Assembly: GCF_039536765.1 (NCBI RefSeq)
Contig: NZ_BAAAZF010000001.1
Location: forward strand, 2,687,501-2,751,500
Reading direction: 5' to 3'
Length of the DNA: 64,000 nucleotides
Source: Parerythrobacter jejuensis
GTDB taxonomy: Bacteria > Pseudomonadota > Alphaproteobacteria > Sphingomonadales > Sphingomonadaceae
Numbering within the stretch: position 1 is the first letter of the stretch; the number at the start of each line of letters is the position of its first letter. Both the position numbers and the translations under genes were made by a program. The notes below the pieces were generated by a model. It saw nothing but the letters and a program-made list of their open reading frames with translations, made no database searches and was not told the origin of the DNA. This document shows, one piece after another, positions 11,962 through 34,840 of this stretch.

Positions 11962-12037
11962 TGGTGCCGGCTGCAGGAGTCGAACCCGCGGCCTGATGAT
12001 TACAAATCAACTGCTCTACCAACTGAGCTAAGCCGGC
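11962..12037 (-). tRNA. tRNA-Thr(TGT)
   Basis: 76 nt including an encoded CCA. On the minus strand the acceptor GCCGGCT pairs with AGCCGGC, the D-arm is GCTC…GAGC, the anticodon loop is TTTGTAA with anticodon TGT, and the T-arm contains TTCGACT. The anticodon stem GTTGA/TCATC has one T·T mismatch at its second pair, and the T-stem has one G·T wobble. Otherwise complete. Confidence 0.95.
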
Positions 12038-16098: not shown

Positions 16099-17256
16099 CT
16101 AGTCCTTTGCGATCCGCAGATAGGTATCGACCACCGCCTGGTTGATCGCATCCCAGCTATAGGCGCGACTGCGTTTCTCGCCCGCTTTGCCGTGTGCGAG
16201 GCGCAGGGCGTCGTCAGCGCAATAGGGGGCGAGCGCCTCGGCAAATGCTTCAGTGTCACCCGGCGTAATGAGCTGGCCCGACTCTCCGTCCGCTACCAGG
16301 CTCGTACTGCCCGTGGCGGAAGCTGCCACGACAGGAAGGCCGCTCGCCATCGCTTCCAGGGTCACATTGCCGAAGGTTTCGGTGATGGAGGGGTTGAGGA
16401 AGATATCGGCGCTGGCCAATGCCCGTCCCAGGTCACGCCCGGTCTGGAAGCCGGCAAACGTTCCGCCCGGCAGCGCCTTTTCGAACCATTCGCGCGCTGG
16501 CCCGTCTCCGATCACCAGAACCTTGTGCGGAACCTGCTTTTTGCGCAGCGCGATGATGCTGTCGGCGAAGACATCGAGGCCTTTTTCCATCACCAGCCTA
16601 CCGAGGAAAGCGATGGCGACATCTTCGTCGGCGAGGCCAAGGCTGCGGCGCCATTCCAGATCGCGGCGCGACGGGTCGAATACATCGCGATCCACGCCGC
16701 GGGTCCATAGCCCGATGTCGGTGTGCATGCCCTGGGCGATCAGTTCATCGATCATGCTTTCAGAAGGTGCCACAAGCGCGTCACAACGGTTGTAGAACCG
16801 GCGCATAATGCCTTCGACCGCGGGTTCGAGGAATGCGAGCCCGTAATAGCGCGGGTAGGTTTCGAACCGCGTGTGGACCGATGCCACTACGGGAATATTA
16901 TTCTTCTGCGCCCATTTCAGAGCCGCATGTCCGGTTGGATCAGGAGAGGAAAGATGCACCATGTTGGGCTTGAACGCCTCCAGCGCCGCGCGCGCCTTGG
17001 CATTAAGGCCAAGAGGCATGCGATATTCGCCGCGCCCCTTCACCGGCATCCGCACATTGGGGACGTCAAACAATTCGCCGGTTGCTTCGAAATCGGGCTC
17101 CGCCACTTTGGGGGAGAACACACGCACGGCTGCGCCCTGCTTCAGCAGGTAGCCCACCAACCGGTTCAGTGCCTGGTTCGCCCCGTCGCGGGTATAATTA
17201 TAGTTCCCGCTAAACAGCGCAATCCGAAGATCGCTCGTTTCCATCATTCGCGCCAT
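16099..17256 (-). CDS. GT4-family glycosyltransferase
   Basis: About 385 aa, GT-B fold. The N-domain has FSGNYNYTRDGANQALNRL for acceptor binding. The C-domain has FLGRLVMEKGLD, the donor loop, and the E-x7-E motif region (SITETFGNVTLEAMASGLPVV). It resembles alpha-mannosyltransferases of the MgtA type and SqdX-like lipid glycosyltransferases; donor and acceptor cannot be decided. ATG at 17256 is used; ATGs at 17247 and 17244 are equally possible, and none has a strong Shine–Dalgarno. Monocistronic and divergent from serC. Confidence 0.85.
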   Translation of the reverse strand: MARMMETSDLRIALFSGNYNYTRDGANQALNRLVGYLLKQGAAVRVFSPKVAEPDFEATGELFDVPNVRMPVKGRGEYRMPLGLNAKARAALEAFKPNMVHLSSPDPTGHAALKWAQKNNIPVVASVHTRFETYPRYYGLAFLEPAVEGIMRRFYNRCDALVAPSESMIDELIAQGMHTDIGLWTRGVDRDVFDPSRRDLEWRRSLGLADEDVAIAFLGRLVMEKGLDVFADSIIALRKKQVPHKVLVIGDGPAREWFEKALPGGTFAGFQTGRDLGRALASADIFLNPSITETFGNVTLEAMASGLPVVAASATGSTSLVADGESGQLITPGDTEAFAEALAPYCADDALRLAHGKAGEKRSRAYSWDAINQAVVDTYLRIAKD

Positions 17257-17372
17257 AAGCAACCCGACGTCGCTTGGCGAGAGGGTGTTGATCCGATGCG
17301 GAAATCATTCTGTCGATGCAATCCTATGCATGCTTGACTTGCTGCAGCGCAACATTAGTGCGGCCAGTGGGC

Positions 17373-17412
17373 CACGCGGTCCCAACGCCGCGCGTGCTCT
17401 CTGTAAGGAGAG
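17373..17412 (+). promoter_or_regulatory. structured serC leader (candidate serC RNA motif)
   Basis: Two abutting hairpins precede serC. The first has a perfect 6-bp stem, CACGCG (17373–17378) with CGCGTG (17391–17396). The second is CTCTCT–GTAA–GGAGAG (17397–17412), a 6-bp stem capped by a GNRA-type GUAA loop. Its 3' arm contains most of the serC Shine–Dalgarno AAGGAG (17405–17410), and the ATG is at 17418. A serC RNA motif upstream of serC–serA operons has been described in alphaproteobacteria; a covariance-model match was not tested here. Confidence 0.55.
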
Positions 17413-17417
17413 AATAC

Positions 17418-18581
17418 ATGACTGCACTACCTAGCGAACCGGCGCTCAAGCCGGAGCGCCCACAATTTTCTTCCGGTCCCACGGTGAAATTCCCGGGCTG
17501 GTCCCTCGACAAGCTGAAAACCGAATCGCTCGGCCGTTCGCATCGCTCTGCCGTGGGCAAGGCGCGGCTGAAATACGCCATCGACCTGTCCAAGGAAATG
17601 CTCGGTATTCCCGAGGACTACCTGGTTGGCATCATGCCCGCATCCGACACGGGCGCACTTGAATGCGCGATGTGGACCATGCTCGGCGGTCGCCCGGCGA
17701 CGGTCGCGGCGTGGGAAAGCTTCGGCAATGTGTGGATTCAGGATGCCGTCAAGCAGCTGAAGCTGAAGGATTTGCAGGTGCTGGACGCCGATTATGGCGA
17801 AATCCCGGACCTGACGCAGGTTCCGCAGGAGAACGACGTCGTCTTCACCTGGAATGGCACCACATCGGGCGCGAAAATCCCCAACACGGACTGGCTTGCG
17901 CCTGGTCGCGCGGGTGTGACGATCAACGACGCCACCAGCGCCGTGTTCGCCCAGGAAATGGACTGGCCCAAGCTCGATGCCACGACCTATAGCTGGCAGA
18001 AAGTCATGGGTTCCGAAGCCCAGCACGGCATGCTGATCCTCAGCCCGAGGGCGGTTGAGCGGATCGAAAGCTATGATCCGGAATGGCCGCTGCCCAAGCT
18101 GTTTCGCCTCAAGAAAGGCGACAGCATCAATCGCAGCATTTTCGAAGGTGCCACGATCAATACACCTTCGCTGCTCGCGACCGAAGATTACATCGCGGCG
18201 CTGGAATGGGCGCAGTCGATTGGCGGCCGCAAGGCGATGTTCGAACGGGCCGATGCCAATGCGAAGATCGTAACCGACTGGATCGAAGCCACGCCGTGGC
18301 TGCGTAACATGGTCGATGACCCGGCGCAGCGAACCAATACGGGCGTCTGCTTCGTGTTTCAGGGTGACTGGTACGAAAGCCTTTCGGCAGAAGATCAGGC
18401 CGCAGTGCCGGCAAAGATCGCCAAGATGCTGGACGAGCGCGACGTGGGCTATGATTTCAACGGCTATCGTGACGCTCCGCCGAGCTTGCGCATCTGGTGC
18501 GGCGGTACTCTGGAGCAGGAAGATCTGAAGCGTCTCCTGCCCTGGATCGAATGGGCCTACGAAACCCTCAAGAACGGCTGA
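17418..18581 (+). CDS. serC: phosphoserine transaminase
   Basis: 387 aa PLP aminotransferase making O-phosphoserine from 3-phosphohydroxypyruvate and glutamate. It is the form common in alphaproteobacteria and actinobacteria, with SSGPTVKFPGW, SHRSAVGKARL, and the PLP lysine in YSWQKVMGSE. ATG 17418 follows AAGGAG at 7 nt; the upstream extension in frame reads through the leader structure and is not expected to be translated. serA follows after 84 nt, so the first two steps of serine synthesis are one operon. Confidence 0.94.
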   Translation: MTALPSEPALKPERPQFSSGPTVKFPGWSLDKLKTESLGRSHRSAVGKARLKYAIDLSKEMLGIPEDYLVGIMPASDTGALECAMWTMLGGRPATVAAWESFGNVWIQDAVKQLKLKDLQVLDADYGEIPDLTQVPQENDVVFTWNGTTSGAKIPNTDWLAPGRAGVTINDATSAVFAQEMDWPKLDATTYSWQKVMGSEAQHGMLILSPRAVERIESYDPEWPLPKLFRLKKGDSINRSIFEGATINTPSLLATEDYIAALEWAQSIGGRKAMFERADANAKIVTDWIEATPWLRNMVDDPAQRTNTGVCFVFQGDWYESLSAEDQAAVPAKIAKMLDERDVGYDFNGYRDAPPSLRIWCGGTLEQEDLKRLLPWIEWAYETLKNG

Positions 18582-18665: not shown

Positions 18666-20261
18666 ATGACGAAACCCAAAGTTCTCATCTCCGATAAAAT
18701 GGACCCGAATGCCGCGCGCATTTTTGAAGAACGTGGCTGTGATGTTGATGTCATCACCGGCGAAACGGCTGAAGAATTGCTCGTCCGTATTGGTGAATAT
18801 GATGGCCTTGCCATCCGCAGCTCGACCAAAGTCACACCCGAAATCCTCGATGCCGCGACCCGTTTGAAGGTCATCGGCAGGGCCGGGATCGGCGTCGACA
18901 ATGTCGATATTCCCTACGCGTCCGGCAAAGGCGTCGTCGTGATGAACACTCCGTTCGGCAATTCGATCACCACGGCAGAACACGCGATTGCCATGATGAT
19001 GGCGCTGGCCCGCCAAATTCCGCAGGCCAATGCGGGCACGCAGGCCGGGGAATGGCCCAAATCCAGCTTTATGGGCGTTGAAGTCACCGGCAAGACGCTG
19101 GGCCTGATCGGCGCCGGCAATATCGGTTCGATCGTAGCTGCCCGGGCGCAGGGCCTGAAGATGAAGGTCATCGCTTTCGATCCCTTCCTGACGCCCGAGC
19201 GCGCGATCGAAATTGGCGTCGAGAAAGTCGATCTGGACGGCCTTCTCGAGCGTGCCGATTTCATTACGCTGCACACACCGCTGACTGACGAGACACGCAA
19301 CATTCTCAGCCGCGAAAGCCTCGGCAAGACCAAGGCAGGTGTCCGGATCGTCAATTGCGCACGGGGCGGCCTGATCGACGAGGCGGCTTTGGCCGACCTT
19401 CTCGAAAGCGGCCACGTCGCCGGGGCTGCACTGGATGTTTTCCAGACCGAACCGGCCAAGGAAAGCCCGCTGTTTGGCATGCCCAATTTCATCTGCACAC
19501 CGCATCTGGGTGCGTCGACGACAGAAGCACAGGTGAATGTGGCGCTGCAGGTGGCTGAACAGATGGCCGATTATCTGGTCAATGGCGGCGTTACCAACGC
19601 GCTGAACATGCCGAGCCTGAGTGCGGAAGAAGCACCCAAGCTAAAGCCATATATGGCACTGGCAGAGCGGCTGGGTTCGCTGGTCGGCCAGCTCGCGCAT
19701 GGAAATTTGCCCAAGATCAGTGTCGAACTGGAGGGCGATGCCGCAGAACTCAATCCCAAGCCGATCACCGGCGCCGTGCTGGCCGGACTAATGCGCCGCT
19801 ATTCCGATACGGTGAACATGGTCAACGCTCCCTATCTCGCCAAGGAACGCGGCATCGAGGTGCGTGAAATCCGCAACACACGTGAAGGCATCTATCAGAC
19901 GCTGGTTCGGGTAACCGTTGCGACCGATGCCGGGGATCGTTCCGTCGCTGGCACATTGTTTGGCAATGCCAAAGATGGGGGCGGCGCCCGCCTGACCGAG
20001 ATCTTCGGGATCGGTATCGAGGCGGAGCTGGATGGCGACATGCTCTATATCGTCAATGACGATGCACCCGGCTTTATCGGCCGGATCGGAACATTGATGG
20101 GCGAGAATGGCATCAATATCGGTACCTTCAACCTGGGACGTCGACAGGCCGGTGGTGAAGCGGTTCTGCTGCTCAGCGTAGACCAGCCGATCAGTCAGGA
20201 AGTGGCTGAGCGGGCCGAAAAGGTAGAAGGTGTGCGCTTTGTGAAGCCTCTGGCCTTCTGA
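18666..20261 (+). CDS. serA: D-3-phosphoglycerate dehydrogenase (long form with ACT domain)
   Basis: 531 aa, oxidising 3-phosphoglycerate with NAD+ in the first committed step of serine synthesis. The NAD motif GAGNIG is at 149–154, and a D-isomer dehydrogenase signature CARGGLIDEAAL follows. An intervening domain (~residues 325–450) and a C-terminal ACT domain (~455–531, DAPGFIGRIGTLMGENGINI) match the type I long enzyme, which is usually inhibited by serine. AAGGA precedes the ATG. Co-directional with serC and hisZ. Confidence 0.95.
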   Translation: MTKPKVLISDKMDPNAARIFEERGCDVDVITGETAEELLVRIGEYDGLAIRSSTKVTPEILDAATRLKVIGRAGIGVDNVDIPYASGKGVVVMNTPFGNSITTAEHAIAMMMALARQIPQANAGTQAGEWPKSSFMGVEVTGKTLGLIGAGNIGSIVAARAQGLKMKVIAFDPFLTPERAIEIGVEKVDLDGLLERADFITLHTPLTDETRNILSRESLGKTKAGVRIVNCARGGLIDEAALADLLESGHVAGAALDVFQTEPAKESPLFGMPNFICTPHLGASTTEAQVNVALQVAEQMADYLVNGGVTNALNMPSLSAEEAPKLKPYMALAERLGSLVGQLAHGNLPKISVELEGDAAELNPKPITGAVLAGLMRRYSDTVNMVNAPYLAKERGIEVREIRNTREGIYQTLVRVTVATDAGDRSVAGTLFGNAKDGGGARLTEIFGIGIEAELDGDMLYIVNDDAPGFIGRIGTLMGENGINIGTFNLGRRQAGGEAVLLLSVDQPISQEVAERAEKVEGVRFVKPLAF

Positions 20262-20289: not shown

Positions 20290-21399
20290 ATGACGAACAC
20301 CGACGACCTGCTCCCTATCGGCCTTGAAGACCGCCTCCCAACAGAGGCGCGTCAGGTCACTCACGCCATGCGCACCGCGCTGCAGGCGATGGATTCGCAT
20401 GGGTATGACCGGGTCCGCCCGCCACTGATCGAATTCGAACGGTCGCTGGCCGGGCGTATGGACGGGGTGCAAACCCGCAACCTGTTCCGCTTTGTCGATC
20501 CCCAGAGCTTGCGCACCCTGGCCCTGCGCAGCGATATGACGCCGCAACTGGGCCGGATTGCTTCCAATGGTATGGCACAGGCTCCGCGACCGCTGCGGCT
20601 TTGCTATGCCGGCGAAGTCGCCACCATGACGGCGGACCAGCTCGATCCTGCGCGCCAGCGTTTGCAGCTGGGCGCTGAATTGATCGGATCCGATACTGTC
20701 GCGGCTGCGGCGGAAATCGTGATGCTGGCAGTCGAGGCGGTCGAGGCCACGGGTGCCACAGGCATTTCGCTCGATTTCACCTTGCCCGATCTGGTCGATG
20801 TCCTCGCCGATGGCGCCTTCCCGCTGGCCCCGGACGCGGTCGAGAAGGTTCGCCGTGAACTCGATACCAAGGATGCCGGTGGATTGGTTGCAGCGGGCGG
20901 AGAGGCCTATTTGCCGCTCATCCATGCGGCTGGTTCCCTCAATGAAGCTCTGGAGAAATTGCGCGCGGTTGATGCGGGCGGCGCGCTGGCGACTCGAATC
21001 GACGGATTGCAACAGGTTGCTGCGCGCGTCGGCGACCGGGCCCGGATCACGCTCGATCCGACCGAACGGCACGGCTTCGAGTACCAGAGCTGGTTCGGAT
21101 TCACGATTTACGCAGAGGGTGCTCGCGGAGCGCTCGGGCGGGGCGGGACCTATATGATCCGCGGATCGGAAGAACCTGCCACCGGATTCTCGCTTTATCT
21201 CGATGCGCTCTTGCCGGCCTTGCCCGCGTCAGAATCGGCGCAGATACTGTTCCTGCCGCCGGGCCATGATGCTGAAGCGGCGGCCCGACTGCGGGCCATT
21301 GGTTGGCGCACGATTTCGGCCTTGTCAGAACAAGACAATCCGGCCGATTTGGGGTGCAGCCATGTGCTCGACGGACAGAATGCCGTCCCGCTCACCTAA
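20290..21399 (+). CDS. hisZ: ATP phosphoribosyltransferase regulatory subunit
   Basis: 369 aa, a class II aaRS-like protein related to HisRS but without tRNA-binding parts. It pairs with short-form HisG in the first step of histidine synthesis. LPIGLEDRLP, the motif-2-like RSDMTPQLGRIA, and Y-x-SWFGFTIY are visible. The catalytic histidine-contacting motifs of true HisRS are degraded, as expected. It starts 29 nt after serA. In many relatives purA follows directly; here ~5 kb of other genes intervene. Confidence 0.9.
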   Translation: MTNTDDLLPIGLEDRLPTEARQVTHAMRTALQAMDSHGYDRVRPPLIEFERSLAGRMDGVQTRNLFRFVDPQSLRTLALRSDMTPQLGRIASNGMAQAPRPLRLCYAGEVATMTADQLDPARQRLQLGAELIGSDTVAAAAEIVMLAVEAVEATGATGISLDFTLPDLVDVLADGAFPLAPDAVEKVRRELDTKDAGGLVAAGGEAYLPLIHAAGSLNEALEKLRAVDAGGALATRIDGLQQVAARVGDRARITLDPTERHGFEYQSWFGFTIYAEGARGALGRGGTYMIRGSEEPATGFSLYLDALLPALPASESAQILFLPPGHDAEAAARLRAIGWRTISALSEQDNPADLGCSHVLDGQNAVPLT

Positions 21400-34764: not shown

Positions 34765-34840
34765 TGGTGGGCGATGACAGGCTCGAACTGCCGACCCTCT
34801 CGGTGTAAACGAGATGCTCTACCAACTGAGCTAATCGCCC
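34765..34840 (-). tRNA. tRNA-Val(TAC)
   Basis: 76 nt with encoded CCA. On the minus strand the acceptor GGGCGAT pairs with ATCGCCC, the anticodon stem TCTCG/CGAGA is perfect, the loop TTTACAC carries anticodon TAC, and the T-arm is GGCAG-TTCGAGC-CTGTC with one G·T wobble. Confidence 0.96.

Follow-up and report, generated by a model that had tools for sequence, protein, structure and literature searches.

The serC Leader and Its Locus

The window analyzed in this study is a stretch of 64,000 nucleotides (nt) of Parerythrobacter jejuensis DNA (contig NZ_BAAAZF010000001.1, positions 2,687,501 to 2,751,500). It carries a short leader RNA directly in front of serC and serA, which encode phosphoserine transaminase and phosphoglycerate dehydrogenase (Table 1). 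The leader is an ordinary member of the known RNA family RF00517, the serC RNA, an orphan riboswitch candidate since 2005. The covariance model scored it at 43.9 bits against a gathering score of 35, with E-values of 2e-6 for the whole window and 1e-8 for positions 17150-17480 only, and it is the single RF00517 match in this genome. An earlier note on this DNA had suggested that the leader may belong to the serC motif of alphaproteobacteria, as a member or as a variant, to be checked with the Rfam model and in related leaders. Both checks favored membership: the score exceeds the gathering score, and both stems covary in relatives, so that the refuting outcome named in the note, a lack of covariance, did not occur. 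The serC-serA operon typical of the family lies downstream according to NCBIfam models.

The letters that characterize the family are present in both hairpins. Around the first one (P1) these are the conserved GUGGG and CCCAAC, found here as CAGUGGGCCA and as the loop CCCAAC. The second (P2) has a GUAA loop, a Shine-Dalgarno sequence AAGGAG lying in the loop and the 3' arm, and a start codon no more than 11 nt further on; 5 nt separate P2 from the ATG at 17418. Compared with RF00517 as defined by Corbino et al. in 2005 (PMC1273637), the window copy has the same two hairpins, the same GNRA-capped P2 over the Shine-Dalgarno, and serC-serA downstream. The family description also includes a near-consensus promoter just 5' of the element; in the window, TTGACT lies at the usual distance and the putative -10 element is weak. 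The copy differs otherwise only by a lowish score (the highest seen was 76.5 bits) and by its P1 sequence, CGCGGU/GCCGCG, which is common in the family of the window's genome.

The second hairpin stands exactly as the earlier note had written it (CTCTCT 17397-17402, GTAA 17403-17406, GGAGAG 17407-17412), including its GNRA-type loop and the enclosed Shine-Dalgarno, and it covaries in relatives. The first stem fared less well. The letters CACGCG (17373-17378) and CGCGTG (17391-17396) are indeed there, but their register is not that of the conserved fold, which according to Rfam and the relatives pairs CGCGGT (17375-17380) with GCCGCG (17387-17392). Relatives with CGCCGU/GCGGCG or CGCUGU/GCAGCG keep the conserved pairing and break the other one, and the nearest-neighbor energy of the conserved register is -9.8 kcal/mol versus -8.7 kcal/mol.

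Table 1. Features of the serC leader and operon, in window coordinates.
Feature	Position	Strand	Evidence
Putative -35 element TTGACT, 35 nt 5' of GGG	17334..17339	+	sequence, spacing in relatives
Putative weak -10 element TAGTGC; predicted transcript start ~17366-17369	17356..17361	+	sequence and spacing
serC leader RNA, RF00517	17365..17417	+	cmscan, above gathering score
Proposed pseudoknot, 5' strand UGGG and 3' strand CCCA (P1 loop)	17368..17371 and 17381..17384	+	relatives
A beside P1, opposite C17393	17374	+	A..C versus G..U/G..C in relatives
P1 hairpin CGCGGU-CCCAAC-GCCGCG (arms 17375-17380/17387-17392)	17375..17392	+	RF00517 structure; covariation of pairs 1-5
P2 hairpin CUCUCU-GUAA-GGAGAG enclosing Shine-Dalgarno	17397..17412	+	RF00517 structure; covariation of pairs 3-6
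Shine-Dalgarno AAGGAG, 7 nt 5' of start codon	17405..17410	+	sequence
serC, phosphoserine transaminase	17418..18581	+	NCBIfam NF002841 and TIGR01365, both above cut-off
serA, phosphoglycerate dehydrogenase	18666..20261	+	NCBIfam TIGR01327 above cut-off

Both Hairpins Covary in Related Leaders

We gathered 166 leaders (denoted by L numbers, genomes by G numbers), of which 147 are distinct. The search core consisted of GGG, 3 nt, a 6-nt arm, a 6-nt loop starting with CC and a second 6-nt arm, followed by the N-terminal signature of SerC. The search therefore demanded the GGG, the start of the loop, both arm lengths, five or more of the six pairs and SerC downstream, and none of these is evidence in itself. 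Leaders with a U-GNRA-G core, 137 of the 147, are called canonical. The counts exclude L218 (G201), which looks like a decayed variant, and L062 and L122, which are second copies of L032 and L001; L095 looks canonical, was missed by the SerC signature and stands outside the table.

As judged by this comparison, the element consists of two covarying hairpins with the Shine-Dalgarno in the U-GNRA-G loop and 3' arm of P2. Pairs 1-5 of P1 and pairs 3-6 of P2 are standard in 134 to 137 of the 137 canonical leaders, each with several pair types, and for each of these pairs none of 1000 shuffles matched the observed pairing. The second pair of P1, for example, is G-C in 75 leaders, C-G in 26, A-U in 24, G-U in 8, U-A in 3 and a U.U mismatch in 1. 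The counts are inflated by kinship of the sequences, but the spread of pair types leaves little doubt that the stems are real. Pair 6 of P1 and pairs 1 and 2 of P2 show no informative variation, and the next C-G pair of P2 beyond the U-GNRA-G core is found in all 137. A seventh P2 pair occurs at chance level (43 of 137 versus 40.0 expected), so the helix ends before it. Seven forms of the GNRA loop were seen. Alone, P2 has an energy of -6.4 kcal/mol in the window (-7.7 with flanking bases) and a mean of -5.5 kcal/mol over 145 leaders.

Distribution of the serC RNA

RF00517 matched 125 of 387 class genomes and 59 of 61 genomes of family f158, and among 199 genomes of the phylum it matched 50, all of them in the class of the window; these counts are lower bounds, since the first filter of the search drops weak members. 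Caulobacter vibrioides, used as a control, carries the motif. A genome search with 74 matches in 118 had suggested that the motif is missing from much of the window's own family. This was ruled out, because two genomes scored without a match (G005 and G023) carry clear modules (L236 and L237). All 30 SerC loci fetched from that family, the 30 best of 69 genomes, carry the module. A weak match, L100 (G121), has no SerC start behind it and probably arose by chance.

Plasmid-borne serC loci were also compared, for 10 of 24 matches. The module is present in Sinorhizobium meliloti, Rhizobium tumorigenes, Shinella and Sphingomonas parapaucimobilis. Plasmid serC genes of Methylorubrum, Azospirillum and Agrobacterium sp. 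T29 (L174, L175 and L172 among them) have no module in the 110 nt upstream and no adjoining serA, and those of Prescottella, Deinococcus and Ilyobacter have no module upstream.

The Leader Is Predicted to Start at the mRNA 5' End

A TTG of the -35 type begins 35 or 36 nt 5' of the GGG in 92 of the 137 canonical leaders. None of the -35 forms searched for was found in 29 of them, and a general promoter scan gave no sigma-70 site at the serC leader of the window. Given the usual promoter spacing, the messenger RNA (mRNA) is predicted to start approximately at the YGGG itself, and Corbino et al. likewise placed putative start sites directly 5' of the motif (PMC1273637). Followed upstream, the serC frame stays open as far as an ATG at 17316, a position 5' of the predicted transcript start; gene callers may miscall the serC start. 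A leader peptide was considered for a GTG that is, by eye, in frame with serC in the window; it was rejected, as many relatives have GCGGG or CCGGG there and the codon is thus unconserved.

A Proposed Pseudoknot and Tandem Modules in Kordiimonadaceae

The base 5' of the GGG is C or T in all 147 distinct leaders. Taken alone, this could be the pyrimidine usual at start sites. The family Kordiimonadaceae offers a view on this question, because there many leaders carry two modules in series. RF00517 matched 27 of 29 genomes of this family (f5), with two Rfam matches in 12 of the 29, and contigs with the tandem pattern belong to Kordiimonas, Pseudokordiimonas, Eilatimonas and other alphaproteobacterial genomes. 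In 25 of the 27 leaders a second module lies upstream, between the putative promoter and the canonical module; 21 of these were placed by a script and 4 by eye, and L250 and L251 are diverged. As for the other two leaders, L248 is cut by the contig end and L030 shows no upstream module. The base 5' of the GGG is a pyrimidine in all 24 downstream modules, including that of L030. This weakens the start-site explanation, because second copies should not sit at a transcript start.

The upstream copies also vary in the letters that would form the second pair between YGGG and the P1 loop. In 23 distinct copies this pair is U-A in 6, C-G in 4, G-C in 3, A-U in 1 and C.A in 9. It is thus standard in 14, as compared with a shuffled mean of 7.8, and none of 10000 shuffles equaled this value. 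When only the 19 script-placed copies are counted, 11 are standard versus 7.2, equaled by 17 of 10000 shuffles. That YGGG pairs with CCCA of the P1 loop as a small H-type pseudoknot is, by these comparisons, supported but not proven.

The upstream copies bear on P2 as well. As read, GNRA letters stand at its tip in 23 of 23 copies, and folding the 24 nt 3' of P1 with no demand for GNRA gave a GNRA tetraloop in 20 of 22; the exceptions are L028, with a 3-nt loop, and L251, with an 8-nt loop containing GAAA. A U.U mismatch is present in most of these stems. Two upstream copies, L028 and L250, lack AGG, and in 5 of 21 neither ATG, GTG nor TTG occurs within 15 nt. Because GNRA is kept even in copies lacking AGG or a start codon, the loop probably has some function besides holding the Shine-Dalgarno.

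Leaders without the GNRA Hairpin

Three weak RF00517 matches (L097, L098 and L099, 28-29 bits) keep YGGG, P1 and CCCAAC and have no GNRA hairpin at the Shine-Dalgarno. A pattern built from them matched 9 of the 387 class genomes, of which 5 were taken as real, two of them new; L179, L180, L182 and L183 were rejected since their arms are not complementary. In addition, 60 serC leaders were sampled through SerC from listed genomes of the class lacking an RF00517 match. They comprised 5 canonical leaders, 5 hairpin-less variants, 1 decayed form and 49 with no recognizable module. In total, 10 of the 147 distinct leaders are hairpin-less, with P1 and its partners kept.

In all ten variants the third base after GGG is G, and P1 is followed by U or C; the same two positions are A and C in 137 of 137 canonical leaders. 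The pattern built from variants prescribed the G and the U, a bias that touches two of the ten. Since RF00517 favors A, C and the hairpin, mixed forms are possibly under-sampled. Of the leaders reached by way of the SerC protein alone, 34 have A..C with GNRA, 5 have G..C or G..U without it, and none is mixed.

Independent repeated loss of the hairpin is not supported. A SerC tree of 73 rows, made by a quick method, needs 7 changes, 2 of them forced by starred branches, and the approximately unbiased (AU) test does not reject a single clade of variants (p 0.836), the tree that holds all ten together being the better one. A sign test on the variants had 2 pairs only, too few for significance. 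The SerC tree thus fits one origin of the hairpin-less form or several. Two further leaders were noted here. L187, which is the same leader as L097, has by eye a small hairpin AGUAC-GCGA-GUAUU just 5' of serC and no clear Shine-Dalgarno, and L226 (G142) combines the variant G..C at the P1 foot with a hairpin close to the Shine-Dalgarno that is capped by a non-GNRA loop.

Taken together, the relatives allow a tentative view of the serC RNA as a switch built from modules. Its free-standing sensor would be P1 with the pseudoknot, placed where the mRNA begins, and the parts joined to it would differ: a GNRA hairpin over the Shine-Dalgarno, the lack of such a hairpin in some lineages, or, in Kordiimonadaceae, a second sensor in tandem. 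The A..C at the P1 foot would contact the GNRA hairpin and become G..U or G..C upon its loss. We regard this view as possible and still rather doubtful.

Proposed Mechanism and Alternatives

Our overall reading, to which we give a probability of roughly 70%, is that the serC leader RNA is a cis-acting element that opens the serC-serA mRNA and exerts translational OFF control through P2, with P1 and the pseudoknot as its sensing core. The last element is supported but not proven. Corbino et al. had already proposed that P2 masks the ribosome-binding site, and both stems were seen by in-line probing (PMC1273637). The earlier note had also cast the second hairpin as the switch, and we infer the same. 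At high levels of a pathway product signal, an effector, slightly likelier a small metabolite than a protein, would steady P1 and the pseudoknot. The GNRA loop of P2 would then pack onto them, P2 would stay closed, and serC translation would be low. At low signal P2, only moderately stable alone, would open to ribosomes.

Several observations weigh against parts of this reading. In the pseudoknot, pair 1 is C.A in 94 of the 147 leaders and shows no covariation in the upstream copies, where the 10 of 23 standard pairs equal the shuffled mean. Pair 2 is C.A in the 9 upstream copies mentioned above. Its A-U example, one G-C and one U-A stem from copies placed by hand, the placing script slightly rewarded pairing, and the genomes are related. 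The constancy of GGG and of the loop start in canonical copies was set by the search. A plain fold of 17341-17420 is unremarkable (z -1.55, with 13 of 200 shuffles folding equally well), and the best such fold uses bases 5' of the predicted transcript and lacks P1; judging from the spacing of the putative promoter, the 5' part of this interval is probably untranscribed. Finally, P2 forms in vitro with no ligand added (PMC1273637), which alone would mean a default OFF state.

The serC RNA could instead be the operator of a metabolite-sensing RNA-binding protein resembling PyrR, with the pseudoknot and the GNRA hairpin as protein contacts and no small molecule bound by the RNA. The seven compounds reported by Corbino et al. 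(serine, threonine and five B6 compounds) showed no binding in vitro, and a protein was proposed by those authors (PMC1273637). The element is also very short, and the GNRA letters of the upstream copies could be a protein contact. However, a 2020 review keeps serC among the strong riboswitch candidates and considers that the earlier assays possibly missed part of the motif (PMC7266159). We take this operator to be a serious contender, somewhat short of an even chance.

It is unlikely that P2 is just a passive brake or a thermometer fixing low serC translation while P1 merely shields the mRNA 5' end from decay. The position of P1 at or next to the predicted 5' end and the moderate stability of P2 would fit this idea, but it leaves unexplained the base classes around P1 (the pyrimidine before GGG and the A..C at the foot), the tandem copies, and the leaders that have P1 and no hairpin.

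Less likely again, the upstream copies of Kordiimonadaceae might be start sites of a small leader open reading frame whose translation opens the second module by translational coupling. An ATG does lie 5 nt 3' of AGG in L005, L008 and L251, and in L005 it opens an 18-codon frame between the modules, with UAA one base 5' of the serC AUG; in 15 of 21 upstream copies a TTG stands 12-14 nt 3' of AGG. The L008 frame, on the other hand, continues past the serC start, the TTG is poorly spaced, and the copies noted above as lacking any such start codon or AGG all keep the GNRA letters. Lastly, a match to the type-P5 twister ribozyme (RF02684) at 17348-17391 is almost certainly no self-cleaving RNA, since its 18.2 bits (E-value 0.14 for 331 bases) are at chance level and under half of the gathering score of 37.6, it goes unreported at the gathering threshold, and it extends 5' of the predicted transcript start.

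Returning to the OFF switch with a pseudoknotted sensor, similar designs are known. SAM-II and preQ1 riboswitches are built on pseudoknots and are very short. The serC leader resembles them in its length and its proposed pseudoknot core, and is unlike them in that the pseudoknot would lie where the mRNA begins, and the ribosome-binding site is masked by a GNRA hairpin that stands apart from it. The tandem leaders of Kordiimonadaceae recall tandem riboswitches such as that for glycine, with two similar modules in series (PMC9481103). They are different from glycine-type tandems because the first serC copy is altered in the letters of the pseudoknot and its P2 usually contains a U.U mismatch; the genome of the window has a single copy.

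Meaning for Ligand Assays

The interest of this element lies in its relatives: the probable pseudoknot, the tandem copies, and the coupled change at the P1 foot where the hairpin is missing all bear on how the switch may work. If the core is indeed a pseudoknotted P1 whose GGG opens the mRNA, RNA for ligand assays has to be made from the native start onward. The A. tumefaciens RNA used in the published assays had its 5' end at -46 (PMC1273637), whereas the GGG begins at -46 in S. meliloti, at -48 in R. tumorigenes, and at -46 to -50 in 30 f158 genomes (30 values within 46-50 were used and 13 false matches outside this range dropped). It is a possibility, and not a finding, that the A. tumefaciens RNA lacked part of the GGG strand.

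An incomplete motif in the assays has already been suggested in print. The 2020 review, which lists serC as a long-standing orphan candidate, cites Greenlee et al. (2018) for additional conserved sequence and structure and suggests that the RNAs assayed were perhaps incomplete (PMC7266159). The pseudoknot may already have been published in Greenlee et al. (2018). The present comparison adds which part to keep, and it supplies tandem leaders, whose binding may be stronger, as well as minimal leaders lacking P2. In the limited collection of literature searched, we identified no report of a ligand, of tandem serC modules or of the P2-less form; in R. etli, one of the candidate RNAs from a tiling-array study lies 5' of serCA (PMC2881028).

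Neighboring Features

In the window, serA is followed by a hisZ-like gene (20290-21399), which NCBIfam hisZ models match below their cut-offs. The Rfam scan of the window also found two transfer RNA genes on the minus strand, at 11965-12037 and 34768-34840.
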